Shown here: positions 123 to 6,026 of the stretch, in pieces | How positions within the stretch are numbered: the first letter of the stretch is position 1 | Layout: each line of letters opens with the position of its first letter | Source of the DNA: Candidatus Altarchaeum sp. | GTDB taxonomy: Archaea; Altiarchaeota; Altiarchaeia; Altiarchaeales; Altiarchaeaceae | Length of the DNA stretch: 6,136 nt | Assembly: GCA_018260755.1 (NCBI GenBank) | Contig: JAGTWP010000070.1 | Coordinates: 1 to 6,136, forward strand | Reading direction: 5' to 3' | Program-made: the position numbers and the translations under genes | Notes under the pieces: generated by a model | What the model was told of the DNA's origin: nothing | What the model saw: only the letters and a program-made list of their open reading frames with translations | The model's database searches: none

Positions 123-647
123 TTAAATTTCCCCTTTTTTGATTACTTCTTTCCCCTGTGCCTTCGGAATAATTTCAAGCTTTCCGTTAAATTTTTTTTG
201 CGTTTCCTTTCCGTCAAAGAATCTGTCCAAAAAAACAGCCAATGCGGCAACCTCGCTGTGCGGCTGATTTCCAATTCCGACATTGTAATCTGTAAGAAAA
301 TACACTTCACTATCAACTTTTTGACCGCCGACAATTATAAGTAAATTTTTTTCTTTGGATTTATCTGAAATTTCTTTTAAGACATCATTTACATTTAGTC
401 CGTACATAGTCAAATGAACCCTAACACCATTAAAATTTTTTATAAATTTTTTATAGTCCTCGGTAAAATTTACCTTAAAATTTCCTCCCCAGTCATTTGT
501 AATCCGCTTAACGCTGTCCTCTACTCTTTCATCCCGGACATCAAAAACAACTTCATCCGCTCCTAATGCACGGGCAGTTAAGCAAATATGCGTTGAAATT
601 CGTTTGTCTCTTTCAAAACGATGCCCGAGTCGCAAAACCGTAATCAT
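123..647 (-). CDS. trm56: tRNA (cytidine(56)-2'-O)-methyltransferase Trm56
   Basis: This 174-aa protein matches the archaeal SPOUT-class Trm56 family, which 2'-O-methylates C56 in the T-loop of tRNAs using S-adenosylmethionine and normally acts as a dimer in the cytoplasm. It begins with the family hallmark VLRLGHRFERDKRISTH (residues 4-20). It continues with VHLTMYG (77-83) and the knot strands that bind the cofactor: IIVGGQKVDSEVY (104-116) and NVGIGNQPHSEVAALAVFL (122-140). The length is normal for the family (about 180 aa), with no truncation. The ATG at 645-647 has no Shine-Dalgarno sequence. An AT-rich TATA-like stretch near 672-680 (minus strand) would place transcription start close to the ATG, suggesting a leaderless mRNA; that is inference. 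The gene is divergent from the glycosyltransferase gene. Together with endA it indicates an archaeal host. Confidence 0.95.
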   Translation of the reverse strand: MITVLRLGHRFERDKRISTHICLTARALGADEVVFDVRDERVEDSVKRITNDWGGNFKVNFTEDYKKFIKNFNGVRVHLTMYGLNVNDVLKEISDKSKEKNLLIIVGGQKVDSEVYFLTDYNVGIGNQPHSEVAALAVFLDRFFDGKETQKKFNGKLEIIPKAQGKEVIKKGEI

Positions 648-769: not shown

Positions 770-2323
770 ATGCACATCCTCGCATTAACATTTGAATACC
801 CTCCTGCACAAACAGGCGGATTAGGAAAAATTGTCCAAGACATATACAAAGAGATATGGAAAAATTTTGGAAACGCAGATGAGAAAATTTATGTAAGTTT
901 AGCGATGCCATCTCAGGGATTGCAGAACGGATATAAAAATATCTCTATTGTAAAGAAAGAGACCGACTTTGATGTTGAATTGGGTGACAGAAAACAGCAC
1001 ATTGAAGTAAAATTGGCTTCTGATTCCGCAAATCCGAATCTTCCTATTCATCTGATATGCGGAGCGGAACTGGATGACAGGCGATGTTATGTGTCTCTTA
1101 CTCAAAAAATTGCATTATTTTCAAGAGCAATTCCGATGTTTATTGACCATTTATTCTGGAATCATTACGATGTTGATTTAATTCACATCCACGATTGGCA
1201 TTGTGTTCCCGCAGGAGTTATGGGAAAATTAAAGTACGCAAAGCAGGGAAAGAAAATACCAATGCTTTACACAATACACCGCATCGGAGAAAAAGAATGT
1301 GTTTATGATGTCCATTTTCTGGACTGGCTCAAATTTTACGAATATGACAACATAAGTAAGATGGCTTATGTTTCCGGTTTCGGCTGGGGGAAGTTTTCAA
1401 TTGAAGCATTAGGATATTATTATGCGGATAAAGTAAATACTGTCAGCAGGAGTTATATATATGATGCATTAAATTTTATGAGTAAATTTCCTCAAAATCA
1501 GGATAACATAAAAAACAAGACCACCTACATTTTTAACGGCATTGAAAAATTTCATAATTTTAATGTCGGTGAAAAGAAAACAGAGAGAAAAAATTTTCTT
1601 AATAAAAACAATTTAAGCAACGGCATCCTTATTTCCTTTGTCGGGAGATTTGACAGAAGACAGGGAAAACCCGGTGCATTATTGAACGCAATAGAGAAAT
1701 TTTTTGAGAAAAGCGATTCAATAACAAAAGATATAAGATTTATTATAAAATATTCCGGCGGGGATGAAAGTTTGCTGAATTATGCGAACTATCTGCAATC
1801 TAATTTTCCAAAAAATGTGAAAATTTTAAAGGGATGGATTGAGCTGGAAAATTTATACAAAGCAAGCGATATATTTGTCAATGTTCCGTATTTTGAGCCG
1901 TTCGGTTTGACAACATTAGAGGCAATGGACAGCGGAGCAATTGTTATCGGAACAGAGGTGGGGGGAATTAGGGATATGCTCAACGACTTTTACTGGAAAT
2001 GGGATTTTGCAGACGGAATGAAAAACAACAATGTTACGGGGTTTTTTACATTGAATGACGCAACTGCTTTGTCAAATAAAATTTTAGAGGTCTGTATTCT
2101 GGTTAAGTCTGGAGAAATTCTAAGTGATTTCGGTGCGCATTCGGAGCAATATAAAAAATTTATGGATTCAATTCCGACAGAATGCGACAAATTAAAGGAA
2201 GAAATTTTAAAAGAGCCGTTTTTAGCAGGTATGATGATGCACAATTCAATAGCGAGAGCGAGGAAATTTTCTATTGAAGAGACAGCAAAAAATTATGTTG
2301 AAATTTATAAAAAGTTAAAATAA
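770..2323 (+). CDS. glgA: Glycogen synthase-like glycosyltransferase (GT5/GT4 fold)
   Basis: This 517-aa protein has the two Rossmann domains of glycogen/starch synthase-type glycosyltransferases, and its length fits archaeal glycogen synthases. The N-terminal half has the sugar-nucleotide loop FEYPPAQTGGLGK (8-20), IHIHDWH (138-144) and YTIHRIG (167-173). The usual lysine of the bacterial K-x-GGL motif is Gln14 here. The C-terminal half shows FNGIEK (255-260), FVGRFDRRQGK (290-300, the phosphate-contacting Arg and Lys) and FEPFGLTTLEAM (375-386), whose Glu376 and Glu384 form the E-X7-E signature, followed by GTEVGGIRD (394-402). The expected reaction is transfer of glucose from ADP- or UDP-glucose to an alpha-1,4-glucan. 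The donor cannot be read from the sequence, and another alpha-glycosyltransferase role is possible. The ATG has no Shine-Dalgarno and sits right after the 12-bp repeat array. The last 28 codons and 3' flank are duplicated 1.9 kb downstream. Confidence 0.8.
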   Translation: MHILALTFEYPPAQTGGLGKIVQDIYKEIWKNFGNADEKIYVSLAMPSQGLQNGYKNISIVKKETDFDVELGDRKQHIEVKLASDSANPNLPIHLICGAELDDRRCYVSLTQKIALFSRAIPMFIDHLFWNHYDVDLIHIHDWHCVPAGVMGKLKYAKQGKKIPMLYTIHRIGEKECVYDVHFLDWLKFYEYDNISKMAYVSGFGWGKFSIEALGYYYADKVNTVSRSYIYDALNFMSKFPQNQDNIKNKTTYIFNGIEKFHNFNVGEKKTERKNFLNKNNLSNGILISFVGRFDRRQGKPGALLNAIEKFFEKSDSITKDIRFIIKYSGGDESLLNYANYLQSNFPKNVKILKGWIELENLYKASDIFVNVPYFEPFGLTTLEAMDSGAIVIGTEVGGIRDMLNDFYWKWDFADGMKNNNVTGFFTLNDATALSNKILEVCILVKSGEILSDFGAHSEQYKKFMDSIPTECDKLKEEILKEPFLAGMMMHNSIARARKFSIEETAKNYVEIYKKLK

Positions 2324-2340
2324 GAAAAAGTAAGAAAAAG
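2321..2340 (+). repeat. 10-bp tandem repeat carrying the glycosyltransferase stop codon
   Basis: TAAGAAAAAG occurs twice in tandem, and the first TAA is the stop codon of the glycosyltransferase gene. The second TAA is shifted by 10 bp and so lies in another frame; a further in-frame TAA follows at 2342. The same pair is preserved in the right copy of the large repeat at 4207-4226. An A-tract of this kind easily arises by slippage. Confidence 0.85.
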
Positions 2341-2379
2341 TTAAATTGTCTCAAAGAAACTTTTTAATTATTTGTGTCA

Positions 2380-2396
2380 AAAGTAAGTTTATATAT
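2380..2396 (+). promoter_or_regulatory. BRE/TATA promoter of the AlbA_2 gene
   Basis: TTTATATAT at 2388-2396 is a strong archaeal TATA box, preceded by an A-rich BRE-like stretch (AAAAGTAAG). A start 24-27 bp downstream would fall near 2415-2420, giving a leader of about 35 nt before the ATG at 2453. The promoter lies inside the 170-bp repeat. An 8-bp inverted pair TTTGTGTC (2371-2378) and GACACAAA (2420-2427) brackets it and could be an operator. Only the left half is present in the right-hand repeat copy. Confidence 0.65.
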
Positions 2397-2452
2397 CAAA
2401 ATAAAAATTTAACAAAAAGGACACAAAAATAATAAAATTATGATTGGGAGGA

Positions 2453-3808
2453 ATGGATCAAAAACAACTCAATGAAGTTATAGAAAACGGTGAAACCGAG
2501 GAAGTAGAATTCAAGAAATCAACCGCTCAATTAGAAAAGGGCTTGAGAGCGATCTGCGCTTTTTTGAACTACCGGGGCGGAGCAGTATATTTTGGAATTG
2601 ACAAGGGAAAGTTTGTCGGACAGCAGGTTTCTGATCAGACAGTAAAATCAATATCCCAAAAAATCAGACAGAGGATAAAACCTGAAGTAACTCCGGAAAT
2701 TACGGTTCCGGGAGCGGGCAAAGAGAAGGTTATAAAAGTTACAGTAAAGGAAGGACTGAATAAAATATATTATCTGGATGGAGTTGCTTACAAAAGAGTT
2801 GGAACAGAAAATATTGTGATGCCTCCTGAAGAAATCGAGAGAATTATTTTGGAAAGGCGAAAAATTACTTTGGACTCTGAAATTTGTGAAGGAGCAAGTT
2901 TGAAAGATATTGATAAGGAAAAAGTAAAATGGTTTTTGAGAAAGGCAAAATATGAGAGAAATTTTGATGTTGATCCGGAGATTCCCATAAAAGAGGTGTT
3001 AGAAAAACTTGAGTTAATGAAAAATGAAAAACTAACAAATGCATCCGTTTTGTTATTTGGAAAGAAACCGCAGAGGTTCTTTTTACAGGCAGAAACAAGA
3101 TGCGCCAGATTCAAAGGAACAGAGCCGCTGGAGTTTATTGATATGAAGGTTTTTAAAGGGAATGTTATTAGTCAAAGAGATGACGCAGTTGAATTTGTGA
3201 AAGAGCACATCAAACTACACGCAAAAATTGTTGGGACAGAAAGAGTGGAGACATGGGAATATCCGATTGAAGCAATAAGGGAAGGAATATCAAACGCAAT
3301 TTGCCATAGGGATTATGAAATACATAGCAATGTTCAGGTAAGAATCTTTGACGATAGGATTGAAGTATGGAATCCGGGGACCTTGTTGAAAGGGCTGACG
3401 ATAGAGAAATTGAAAGGAAAGCACGAATCCATATTAAGAAACCCGATGATAGGCAAGTGCTTTTTTCTCATCAAATTTATAGAGCAATGGGGCACAGGCA
3501 CAAATAGAATAATCAGGGAAACATTAAATTATGGGCTCCCCGAGCCAATTTTTGAAGATACGAAAACAAGTTTTGTTCTCACTTTTAGAAAATATAGGAT
3601 TTCGGACGAGTTGCTCAAAACATTGAATGAAAGACAACAAAAATCTATTGAACATATAAAAGAAAAAGGAGCGATAACAACAGCAGAATATCAATCAATA
3701 AACGATATCGGCAAGGTTTATTCGGTAAAAGAGTTAAATGAAATGGTTGCCGCAGGAATAATATATAGAACCGGTAAAGGCCGCAGTGTTAAATATGTAT
3801 TGAAGTGA
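2453..3808 (+). CDS. AlbA_2 (Schlafen-like) / GHKL-ATPase / winged-helix protein, COG2865 type
   Basis: The 451-aa product has the three-part layout of COG2865 proteins, predicted ATP-binding transcriptional regulators often mislabelled as RecG helicase. Residues are numbered from the ATG at 2453. An AlbA_2 nucleic-acid-binding domain (about 1-135) carries EVEFKKS (17-23) and GGAVYFGIDKGKFVG (42-56). A GHKL-type ATP-binding region follows, with EAIREGISNAICHRDY (273-288, N-box Glu/Asn), DDRIEVWNPG (300-309) and WGTGTNRI (346-353, glycine loop). A C-terminal winged helix (about 392-451) is likely DNA-binding. The target is unknown. A strong GGGAGGA directly abuts the ATG, unlike the SD-less neighbours, and its spacing is unusually short; a TTG at 2444 is the alternative start. 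The gene has its own promoter and lies inside the repeat-bracketed module, suggesting acquisition. Such proteins are frequent in accessory and defence regions, but no partner is visible here. Confidence 0.85.
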   Translation: MDQKQLNEVIENGETEEVEFKKSTAQLEKGLRAICAFLNYRGGAVYFGIDKGKFVGQQVSDQTVKSISQKIRQRIKPEVTPEITVPGAGKEKVIKVTVKEGLNKIYYLDGVAYKRVGTENIVMPPEEIERIILERRKITLDSEICEGASLKDIDKEKVKWFLRKAKYERNFDVDPEIPIKEVLEKLELMKNEKLTNASVLLFGKKPQRFFLQAETRCARFKGTEPLEFIDMKVFKGNVISQRDDAVEFVKEHIKLHAKIVGTERVETWEYPIEAIREGISNAICHRDYEIHSNVQVRIFDDRIEVWNPGTLLKGLTIEKLKGKHESILRNPMIGKCFFLIKFIEQWGTGTNRIIRETLNYGLPEPIFEDTKTSFVLTFRKYRISDELLKTLNERQQKSIEHIKEKGAITTAEYQSINDIGKVYSVKELNEMVAAGIIYRTGKGRSVKYVLK

Positions 3809-3835
3809 ACGATAAGTGAACGATAAGTGAACGAT
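3803..3835 (+). repeat. Three 11-bp tandem repeats carrying the AlbA_2 gene stop codon
   Basis: AAGTGAACGAT is present in three perfect copies (3803-3813, 3814-3824, 3825-3835). The TGA of the first copy (3806-3808) terminates the AlbA_2 gene. Because the unit is 11 bp, the three TGAs at 3806, 3817 and 3828 fall in all three reading frames, so any ribosome running past would stop within 25 bp. Confidence 0.92.
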
Positions 3836-4120
3836 TAGTAAAATTTGCGTGAATTTCGAGTACAGAAAGCACATCTGTAAACGGAAACTTCGCAGAAACA
3901 AATTATTGATAGCTGAGAAATGACACACTTTTTTGCAGAAAGCAGAGAAATTTTAGAAACGAGATGTGCTTTTGTGAACACTCCGCAGAAAATCAGAGAA
4001 CATTTTGACCCGGTTGGCAGAGCCAATCACAAATTATCCGCAAGCAAGATAATGAAGATAGTAAGGGGTTCCAGAGAGGAAGTAGACACTGCAAACTGCG
4101 AAGGCGCAATATGGGGAAAG
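3809..4120 (+). other. Region of unclear coding status between the AlbA_2 gene and the right repeat
   Basis: This stretch of about 310 bp is clearly richer in G+C than the other intergenic regions here, which suggests coding origin. In the frame of the ORF at 3920, translation from 3842 reads like protein but is cut by TAA (3878) and TGA (3914). A second frame is open from 3831 to a TGA at 3921-3923 and includes a GTG at 3849 (24 codons); its stop overlaps the ATG of the next ORF as ATGA. An 11-bp inverted pair, AAAGCACATCT (3866-3876) and AGATGTGCTTT (3962-3972), could form a large hairpin. I read this as a decayed gene or unknown cargo, not as ordinary spacer. Confidence 0.4.
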
Positions 4121-4123
4121 TGA
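3920..4123 (+). CDS. Small ORF of unknown function, possibly a gene remnant
   Basis: This is a 67-aa open frame starting at ATG 3920 with no Shine-Dalgarno and no promoter that I can identify. The product is soluble and charged, with no membrane segment or signal peptide. The C-terminal half (about residues 28-61) contains HFDPVGRANHKLS and KIMKIVRGSREEVDTANCEG, which read like real protein, but I do not recognise the family. Its stop TGA (4121-4123) overlaps the ATG (4123) that opens the relic glycosyltransferase tail by one base, exactly where the right repeat begins. It could be a genuine small gene of the bracketed module, or the 3' remnant of a larger gene cut by the rearrangement. The in-frame stops just upstream favour a remnant. 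Confidence 0.3.
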   Translation: MTHFFAESREILETRCAFVNTPQKIREHFDPVGRANHKLSASKIMKIVRGSREEVDTANCEGAIWGK

Positions 4124-4209
4124 TGCATAATTCAATGAAAAGAGGATGGAAATTTTCTATTGAATAGACAGCAAAAAATTATGTTGAAATTTATAAAAAG
4201 TTAAAATAA
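4123..4209 (+). pseudogene. Relic C-terminal end of the glycosyltransferase gene
   Basis: Read from the ATG at 4123, this segment encodes MHNSMKRGWKFSIE, a TAG stop (4165-4167), then TAKNYVEIYKKLK and the TAA at 4207-4209. It parallels residues 490-517 of the intact glycosyltransferase, where the TAG position is a GAG (Glu504). It is therefore a dead 3' fragment with no N-terminal part. The first residues after MHNS differ from the intact gene while the rest is nearly identical. That mosaic could mean the tail came from a related glycosyltransferase, with the core later homogenised by gene conversion. Confidence 0.85.
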
Positions 4210-4265
4210 GAAAAAGTAAGAAAAAGTTAAATTGTCTCAAAGAAACTTTTTAATTATTTGTGTCA

Positions 4266-4282
4266 AAAGTAAATTTATATAT
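4266..4282 (+). promoter_or_regulatory. Duplicate TATA promoter, probably serving purU
   Basis: TTTATATAT at 4274-4282, with an A-rich BRE-like stretch before it, is the copy of the promoter at 2388-2396. Transcription would start near 4300. The purU ATG is 134 bp beyond the box, but about 86 bp of this is the MITE-like insert and its target duplication. Without them the spacing would be close to that seen for the AlbA_2 gene. No stronger promoter-like sequence stands out nearer to purU. Confidence 0.5.
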
Positions 4283-4321
4283 CAAAATAATTTATTAAAA
4301 TTTAAAATAAATCTGAATAAA

Positions 4322-4402
4322 TAGACATGTTGCAAAATAACTTTTTTACATTTAAATTTTATTATTTTTCACCTTTAAAATTTTTAATTTGCAACAACTC
4401 TA
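4322..4402. mobile_element. 81-bp MITE-like near-palindrome with TIRs and 5-bp flanking repeat
   Basis: The ends TAGACATGTTGCAAA (4322-4336) and TTTGCAACAACTCTA (4388-4402) are inverted repeats matching at 13 of 15 positions. Pairing continues imperfectly inward to about 4350/4374 (roughly 23 of 29), so the whole unit folds into one hairpin. The sequence is flanked on both sides by ATAAA (4317-4321 and 4403-4407), like a 5-bp target duplication. It has no coding capacity. In such AT-rich DNA the flanking repeat alone is weak, but the G/C-containing TIR core TGTTGCAAA is less likely by chance. A leader hairpin of purU is the main alternative. Confidence 0.5.
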
Positions 4403-4415
4403 ATAAAGTAATATT

Positions 4416-5267
4416 ATGGAAACCACCACTATTTTATTAACATGTCCTGACAGCAAAGGCATCGTTGCAAGTGTTACCGATTTCGTCTATAAAAACGATG
4501 GAAATATCCTGCACGCGGACCAGCATATTGACGATAAAAGTAAAACATTATTCATGCGGATTGAATTTGATCCAGCAAATTTTAAGATTGAAAAAGAAAG
4601 AATAAGAAATAAATTTAACGAAATTGCTGTCCTGTTTGATATGAATTATTCTGTAAAATTTTCCTCCGAAATACAGAATGTGGCAATTTTTGCCGGAAAG
4701 GAGGAACATTGTTTATTCGACATACTTCTGAAACAAAAAGCAGGTGAATTAAAATGCAATATTCCTTTGATAATAAGCAACCATCCGGATATGGAAAATA
4801 TTGCGAAATTTTTTGGATGTAAATATTTTGTAATAGAAAAGACTCCCGAAAATAAAATTTCACAGGAGGTAAAGGAAAGGGAATTATTGAGAAAATTTAA
4901 AATTGATACAATAGTTTTGGCAAAATATATGCAGATTTTGAGTAAAAATTTTATTGAAAGTTATCCGGACAGAATAATAAATGTTCATCATTCGTTTTTA
5001 CCTGCATTTAAAGGTGCAAAGCCGTATTTACAGGCATATGAGGCAGGAGTAAAGTTAATCGGAGCGACCGCACATTATGTCACGGAAGAATTAGATAACG
5101 GTTCCATAATTGAACAGGAAGTTGTAAGGGTTAGCCACAAGGACACATTGTCGGATTTTATTGAAAAAGGGAAGAATGTTGAAAAAATAGTTTTGGCAAG
5201 GGCATTAAAAGCACATTTGGAGAATAAAATTTTAGTTTATGGAAATAAGACGGTTGTTTTTGATTAA
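4416..5267 (+). CDS. purU: Formyltetrahydrofolate deformylase PurU
   Basis: The 283-aa product has the length and layout of PurU, which hydrolyses 10-formyltetrahydrofolate to formate and tetrahydrofolate, balancing the one-carbon pool and supplying formate for purine synthesis. An N-terminal ACT domain (about 4-84: ILLTCPDSKGIVASVTDFV, LHADQHID) is the usual regulatory part. The formyltransferase-fold domain (about 87-283) contains EEHCLFDIL (96-104), AKYMQIL (169-175), INVHHSFLPAF (188-198) and GATAHYVTEELDNGSIIEQ (216-234). By analogy with PurN-type enzymes the catalytic residues are Asn189, His191 and Asp227, all present. The C-terminus keeps the typical GNKTVVF. There is no Shine-Dalgarno. 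Most archaea use tetrahydromethanopterin for C1 transfer, so a folate enzyme of bacterial type suggests horizontal transfer or a folate-using archaeon. The stop codon lies in the first unit of a 29-bp tandem array. Confidence 0.95.
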   Translation: METTTILLTCPDSKGIVASVTDFVYKNDGNILHADQHIDDKSKTLFMRIEFDPANFKIEKERIRNKFNEIAVLFDMNYSVKFSSEIQNVAIFAGKEEHCLFDILLKQKAGELKCNIPLIISNHPDMENIAKFFGCKYFVIEKTPENKISQEVKERELLRKFKIDTIVLAKYMQILSKNFIESYPDRIINVHHSFLPAFKGAKPYLQAYEAGVKLIGATAHYVTEELDNGSIIEQEVVRVSHKDTLSDFIEKGKNVEKIVLARALKAHLENKILVYGNKTVVFD

Positions 5268-5375
5268 AATTTTTGGCATGTGTTGTTTTTGATTAAAATT
5301 TTTGGCATGTGTTGTTTTTGATTAAAATTTTTTGGCATGTGTTGTTTTTGATTAAATTTGTGTGTTTTTGATTAG
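5253..5375 (+). repeat. 29-bp tandem repeat array across the purU stop codon, with oligo-T tracts
   Basis: Units lie at 5253-5281 (29 bp), 5282-5310 (29 bp, identical) and 5311-5340 (30 bp, one extra T). Two decayed partial units follow at 5341-5363 and about 5362-5375. Each full unit starts GTTGTTTTTGATTAAAA and ends TTTGGCATGT. The first unit contains the last codons of purU (Val-Phe-Asp) and its TAA at 5265-5267, and later TAAs at 5294, 5323 and 5353 cover the other frames. Every unit has two T-tracts, the usual signal for intrinsic termination in archaea, so the array probably doubles as tandem terminators insulating endA. Confidence 0.9.
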
Positions 5376-5435: not shown

Positions 5436-6026
5436 ATGAAAAAAATTAGAGGTGCACTATCTGGAACACGAATCATAAGCAGAGACAAAAGCATTGAAAA
5501 ATACATCTTTCTGGGAGATGAGGCAAAAAAATTAGGTGGATTTTCAGTAATTGAGGGATTATATTTGGTTGAAAAAGGTATTTTAGAGGTCTATGATAAA
5601 GACAGGAATGTAAATTTTGAAGAATTATTAGAAAAGGGAATGAAATTAACTAATGATGAAAATTTTTACATAAAATATGTGGTTTTCAGGGATTTGATGA
5701 ACAGAGGATATATGCTGGCAACAGGAATCAAATTCGGTGTTGATTTCAGGGCGTATGACAAAAAGGACAACAAAGAAGGCATAAAATCCGAAAAAACAGG
5801 TGAAATAGATATTGAAAAGATAGGACAAAAACAAAACAATGTGCGGCAAATCAGGCTCCATTCAAAATTTCTTATTAAGGTTGTGCCTGAGGAATATATT
5901 TCTTCTTTTCCGGGAATAGCAGGGGATGTCCGGCTGGCAAGAGCGGTAAATAAAAATTTAGTTTATGCTGTTGTTGATAAGGATAGCGACATTCTCTATT
6001 ATGGAATTGATATGGCAAAAATTTAA
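5436..6026 (+). CDS. endA: tRNA-splicing endonuclease EndA with an enlarged active-site loop
   Basis: This 196-aa protein fits the single-unit archaeal EndA class (about 170-190 aa, typically a homotetramer), which cuts bulge-helix-bulge motifs to release tRNA and rRNA introns. The N-terminal domain (about 1-75) includes GGFSVIEGLYLVEKG (34-48). The catalytic domain carries YVVFRDLMNRGYMLATGIKF (81-100), GVDFRAY (101-107), LHSKFLIKVVPE (141-152) and RLARAVNKNLVYAVVD (166-181). By family alignment the triad is Tyr107, His142 and Lys173, all present. Tyr and His are 35 positions apart, against about 10 in the Methanocaldococcus enzyme, because of a charged, Lys-rich insert (about 109-138). Apart from this the gene looks intact. 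It has its own upstream AT-rich region and follows purU after a repeat/terminator array, so it is probably transcribed separately. Confidence 0.95.
   Translation: MKKIRGALSGTRIISRDKSIEKYIFLGDEAKKLGGFSVIEGLYLVEKGILEVYDKDRNVNFEELLEKGMKLTNDENFYIKYVVFRDLMNRGYMLATGIKFGVDFRAYDKKDNKEGIKSEKTGEIDIEKIGQKQNNVRQIRLHSKFLIKVVPEEYISSFPGIAGDVRLARAVNKNLVYAVVDKDSDILYYGIDMAKI

Follow-up and report, generated by a model that had tools for sequence, protein, structure and literature searches.

The locus and its direct repeat

The window, by which we mean the whole stretch of DNA analysed here, is a complete contig (C28) of 6136 bp from a Candidatus Altarchaeum metagenome bin of 78 contigs. It holds the following features, of which the central ones lie between a glycosyltransferase gene (GT) and a purU-like gene:

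123-647, minus strand: aTrm56
770-2323, plus strand: intact GlgA-like GT with Glyco_transf_5 and GT1 domains (Pfam PF08323/PF13692)
2235-2404, plus strand: left repeat copy, comprising the GT tail, its stop codon and 81 bp of intergenic DNA with a TATA-like box
2388-2396, plus strand: TATA-like box TTTATATAT, putative promoter of the AlbA_2 gene, read from the sequence
2453-3808, plus strand: gene for an AlbA_2 (Schlafen)-HATPase_c_4-winged-HTH protein (PF04326, PF13749), 451 aa from the ATG, between GT and the purU-like gene
3803-3839, plus strand: three tandem copies of AAGTGAACGAT (11 bp) over the AlbA_2 stop codon, specific to this gene
3917-4108, plus strand: remnant of another AlbA_2 gene, from a different subgroup, in one open frame
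4121-4290, plus strand: right repeat copy, comprising a dead GT tail, a TAG at 4165-4167 and a second TATA-like box
about 4320-4404, no strand assigned: MITE-like dispersed repeat of 85 bp between the right copy and purU, with ends TAGACATGTTGCAAA / TTTGCAACAACTCTA
4416-5267, plus strand: purU-like formyltransferase (ACT and Formyl_trans_N, domain search), the right neighbour
5436-6026: tRNA-splicing endonuclease gene

A domain search bore out what an earlier note on this DNA had said of the GT, AlbA_2 and purU genes. The open reading frame listed for the AlbA_2 gene begins at a TTG at 2444, and its 451 residues are counted from the ATG at 2453. Both of its Pfam matches (68.6 bits for PF04326 and 88.5 bits for PF13749) exceed the gathering score, and the protein belongs to the AlbA_2 (SLFN)/HATPase_c_4 regulator family; NCBIfam gave it no AlbA_2 name. 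In an AlphaFold2 model with a mean pLDDT of 86.9, the C-terminal part has an HHH-beta-beta, winged-HTH-like arrangement. The nearest solved structure to the protein is 3lmm, and the predicted C-terminal fold gives weak fold matches to the plasmid centromere-binding protein AspA. The window contains no defence genes, and the PADLOC matches are to Argonaute-related models that share parts of the protein, which is not evidence for a defence system. An Rfam scan of the whole window returned no match. Two further sets of short repeats lie beside the neighbouring genes: four 12-bp tandem units (TTTTATTGTAAA) at 714-766, upstream of the GT start codon, and, at 5257-5359, the 3' end of purU including its stop codon followed by 29-30 bp tandem repeats of its last codons.

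The copies of the direct repeat are identical at 160 of 170 positions (94%) and are spaced 1886 bp apart, with a longest exact run of 107 bp; the absence of indels and the core of 141/143 identities are as the earlier note had described them. The 10 mismatches are unevenly spread: the first 27 bp contain 8 of them and the 143 bp beyond contain 2 (Fisher p = 5e-6). Such clustering suggests a tract of gene conversion or a junction that was patched, not simple drift. The earlier account of what the repeat carries also holds: the left copy includes the last 89 bp of GT and its stop codon, and the 81 bp beyond the stop include TTTATATAT. Read directly, the right copy runs into an in-frame TAG at 4165-4167, lacks a GT body before it, and is indeed a dead tail in front of purU, with its own TTTATATAT box at 4274-4282. 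A search of the genome for further copies found these two only; the sole candidate for a third was a weak AT-rich match of 71 bases at 73% (E 4e-4). Elsewhere in the genus, the promoter part of the repeat had no convincing match before position 2430. From about 2430 onward the leader of the AlbA_2 gene is common to two AlbA_2 genes of the congener G003, whereas the DNA before it is not.

A relic of another AlbA_2 gene and an empty site

The earlier note had described about 310 bp of unknown DNA within the module. This DNA is present, but most of it is a degraded fragment of another AlbA_2 gene, headed by the 11-bp repeats, and a reading of it as an RNA or as unrelated cargo gives way to that of a relic. 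The relic matches residues about 17-148 of AlbA_2 proteins of another subgroup, with two internal deletions, and scores 35.0 bits as against at most 26.2 bits in about 500 dinucleotide shuffles. Because these 310 bp contain the relic of a second AlbA_2 gene, the locus is what is left of a small array of AlbA_2 genes. Searches for relics 3' of AlbA_2 genes in general gave few clear cases, with controls contaminated by genes that lie directly upstream of AlbA_2.

Between the right copy and purU, the 85-bp dispersed repeat has imperfect terminal inverted repeats (TAGACATGTTGCAAA...), with an inverted repeat at 4322-4348/4376-4402. It has 35 matches in its own genome, of which about 18 are near full length at 79-95% identity. 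Being short, multicopy, free of genes and bounded by terminal inverted repeats, the element at 4320-4404 has the features of a MITE, which apply to it and not to the module as a whole. Copies lie on contigs C61, C37, C27, C73, C54, C7, C22 and others of this genome, and seven are 94-95% identical.

The GT gene is also present in the Candidatus Altarchaeum bin JAGWDQ, the nearest named relative to carry it, and has an ortholog with 87% amino acid identity in G003. There the GT stop codon is followed, after 2 bp, by the purU start codon; this is the empty site that the earlier note had proposed looking for in related genomes. The G003 site has no 81-bp promoter part, AlbA_2 gene, right repeat copy or MITE-like repeat. 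In the core coding part, 5 bases are common to both repeat copies and differ from G003, while the copies differ from each other at 1 site. Because both copies share these five bases, the duplication, or its last homogenisation, is younger than the split from G003, in keeping with the earlier suggestion of a recent event or gene conversion. Insertion is the probable direction of change; loss of the module in G003 would be a less simple explanation, since a crossover joining the two copies should have kept the promoter part in place. Since the 81 bp with the promoter are missing in G003, a pure target duplication in turn needs either loss there or an earlier gain. This is the one empty site found: two other repeat-flanked loci (G003:C82 and C121) have no ortholog in congeners.

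Recurrence around AlbA_2 genes in related genomes

The class is rich in AlbA_2 genes, with 25 matches in G003, and many of these genes are flanked in a similar manner. When the 2-kb flanks of AlbA_2 ORFs in related genomes were searched for direct repeats, these were found around 13 of the 25 closest AlbA_2 genes, which are not 13 independent insertions because several flanked cases are tandem arrays, and around 19 of 59 AlbA_2 ORFs overall. The corresponding figures for controls, among which are further multi-copy families, ATPase_2 for one, were 8/85 for ORFs far from AlbA_2 and 5/99 for ORFs near it (Fisher p = 9e-4 for 19/59 against the distant controls). Among the control regions, direct repeats flank a DNA methylase gene (L145, 7529-8464) and several ATPase_2 genes in tandem (L146, 4076-9163), so AlbA_2 is not the sole repeat-flanked family. 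The earlier view of the module as a lone element, such as a non-autonomous cassette, falls in the face of the second AlbA_2 relic within it and of the duplicated gene ends around other AlbA_2 genes.

The flanking repeats elsewhere are 90-500 bp long, locus-specific and made of gene heads as often as gene tails, and those of similar structures in other assemblies are 80-98% identical. In 6 of 8 single-gene cases checked, the locus-specific repeats include a gene start or stop; L102, whose repeat had been extended as far as the start codon, is left out of this count. Annotation and ORF maps identify these repeats as heads of a deacetylase-like gene (L079), an ABC transporter gene (L120) and apparently polB (L098), and as tails in the window and at L093. 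Two arrays are particularly clear. At G003:C82 (L079, 5940-16113) there are five copies of a single deacetylase-like gene head, with AlbA_2, ATPase_2, AlbA_2 debris and ATPase_2 in the spacers, and two units have a common head and promoter (332 bp, 93%) yet carry unrelated genes. At G026:C110 (L097, 4008-13382) five AlbA_2 genes stand in a row, and in 4 of the 5 units the leaders are 93-96% identical over 420-480 bp while the proteins are 27-53% identical. Gene arrays with constant flanks are therefore found at both of these loci, and the window retains one intact unit. By eye, nucleotide similarity between paralogs at different loci often starts or stops at about nt 460-500 of the AlbA_2 coding sequence; a break at this point would fit exchange of N- and C-terminal parts, that is, domain shuffling.

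The most surprising by-product of the analysis is the short repeats near the 3' ends of AlbA_2 genes, which are statistically strong. In the region that reaches from 300 nt upstream of the stop codon to 150 nt downstream of it, 42 of 64 AlbA_2 ORFs have a tandem repeat of period 10-13, compared with 3 of 226 ORFs of other kinds (p = 1e-30), with an effective number smaller than 64 because the AlbA_2 genes are related. The unit sequences vary from gene to gene, and the period is mostly 12 within the coding sequence (20/25) and mostly 11 past the stop (17/22). The AAGTGAACGAT unit of the window is found nowhere else in its genome, and 12-bp coding repeats are also present in 3 of 8 bacterial plasmid homologs. 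Such 3'-end repeats were seen in the window, at L076, L083, L084, L085, L086, L097, L098 and others, and further at L102, L103, L105, L106 and L107. We hypothesise that the winged-HTH domain may recognise the short repeats of its own gene; a Mantel test for covariation of repeat unit and HTH gave p = 0.08.

Origin of the arrangement and its relation to known systems

In light of these observations, how might the module have arisen? We lean towards a recombination event, homologous or repair-driven, in which DNA was inserted or a cassette replaced and a gene end was duplicated with no integrase. DNA with an AlbA_2-ATPase-winged-HTH gene would have been placed between the adjacent GT and purU genes in this Ca. 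Altarchaeum lineage, in such a way that the junction DNA (the GT tail and the 81 bp with the promoter) came to stand on both sides; GT would as a result have stayed intact and the new gene would have gained a promoter. The locus would then have held at least two AlbA_2 genes, one since decayed, and the MITE-like repeat would have landed beside it later. More generally, AlbA_2 genes may serve as cargo that is swapped between the copies of repeats peculiar to each locus (heads, tails and leaders) through homologous or repair recombination and with no integrase, and selection against gene-breaking events alone would leave such neighbour-sparing cases in view.

The main rival, which accounts for the window nearly as well and which we regard as possible though less probable, is a local tandem duplication: a unit of the repeat (GT tail and promoter) and AlbA_2 was doubled, and the extra copy decayed or was deleted to leave repeat, AlbA_2, relic and repeat. 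This would give the identical repeat-gene-repeat layout with the promoter within both copies, and it is in line with the clear tandem AlbA_2 arrays of relatives and with the second AlbA_2 relic in the window. Yet the relic is closer to another AlbA_2 subgroup than to the intact gene, no AlbA_2 remnant is seen past the right copy, and the near-identical leaders of the arrays stand before very different genes, even of other families, so that cargo replacement or leader conversion would be needed in any case. The earlier idea of an integration that rebuilds a gene end with no integrase fares partly well: there is an empty site, the neighbours are intact and no tyrosine or serine integrase occurs among the main ORFs of the window. 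Integration at an attachment site fits worse. An att-like direct repeat that restores a gene end is present, together with the G003 empty site, and would suit a non-autonomous element that a trans-acting integrase inserted into the 3' end of GT while rebuilding it. We nonetheless consider this highly improbable, since the window has no integrase, the module ends have no inverted repeats (the repeat there being the 170-bp direct one), and the flanking repeats at other loci are locus-specific, 90-500 bp long and as often heads as tails. Heads as often as tails, along with arrays, are better explained by recombination-driven arrays than by attachment sites.

It is also conceivable, if unlikely, that AlbA_2-ATPase-winged-HTH genes are a class of self-addressed cargo, in which each protein would recognise, by its HTH, the 3' repeats of its own gene, spaced by about a helical turn, and protein and repeats together would direct insertion or exchange between duplicated ends with no known recombinase. 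Less likely again are self-addressed mobile units, in which the AlbA_2 protein would bind its own 3' repeats through the winged HTH and join in insertion or recombination. The gene-specific 11/12-bp repeats and their excess over controls, the confinement of the window's unit to one place in its genome and the predicted C-terminal fold with its weak matches to AspA speak for such units; the protein has no known recombinase or transposase domain, and the coding-region repeats could be slippage products or linkers. An assembly artefact is the least probable origin of all: the window is a whole 6.1-kb contig in a 78-contig bin, but the copies differ at 10 sites, their flanks differ, and similar structures recur in other assemblies.

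Compared with known systems, the arrangement resembles Campbell-type (single-crossover) integration or insertion-duplication, which likewise leaves a repeat-insert-repeat layout in which the direct repeats are long and homologous and a short target duplication is absent; here the likeness lies in the repeat layout. Gene-end integrating elements, which use an integrase at tRNA or protein-gene 3' ends, likewise rebuild a 3' end and displace the old one, whereas here there is no integrase, heads as well as tails are involved and the repeats are long and variable. Integrons and other cassette arrays also place variable genes between repeated elements, but no IntI or attC is present in the window, and the repeats are local gene ends that differ at each locus. 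As for IS elements and transposons, the module has no terminal inverted repeats or short target duplication around it, and a domain search found no transposase gene in the window. The protein itself shares its domain order and fold with COG2865-type AlbA_2 (PF04326)/HATPase_c_4 (PF13749) regulators, which are related to RecG, such as DIP2311 (PDB 3lmm). Coding repeats of 4 residues (12 bp) also occur among bacterial plasmid homologs; what sets the archaeal members apart is that they stand in recombining arrays between duplicated gene ends, with 11-bp repeats that lie across the stop codon or beyond it. Conflict systems also include Schlafen/AlbA_2 proteins, for instance as fusions to prokaryotic Argonautes or in their vicinity (PMC6299218); the window protein has the AlbA_2 domain in common with these proteins, while the window is without defence genes. 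A search of the open-access literature for AlbA_2 or COG2865 with repeats returned nothing relevant.

Thus, the locus represents a form of insertion-duplication that is real and that recurs around members of a known gene family, and it looks like recurrent shuffling of AlbA_2 genes by means of duplicated gene ends with no recognised integrase. AlbA_2/RecG-related regulators are widespread and often multi-copy, and little is known of their role and of how they spread. The duplicated ends, the near-constant leaders with exchanged cargo and the short 3' repeats offer handles on both the function and the spread of AlbA_2. If confirmed, the pattern would show how a gene can enter next to an essential one and leave it unharmed, with no need of an integrase.
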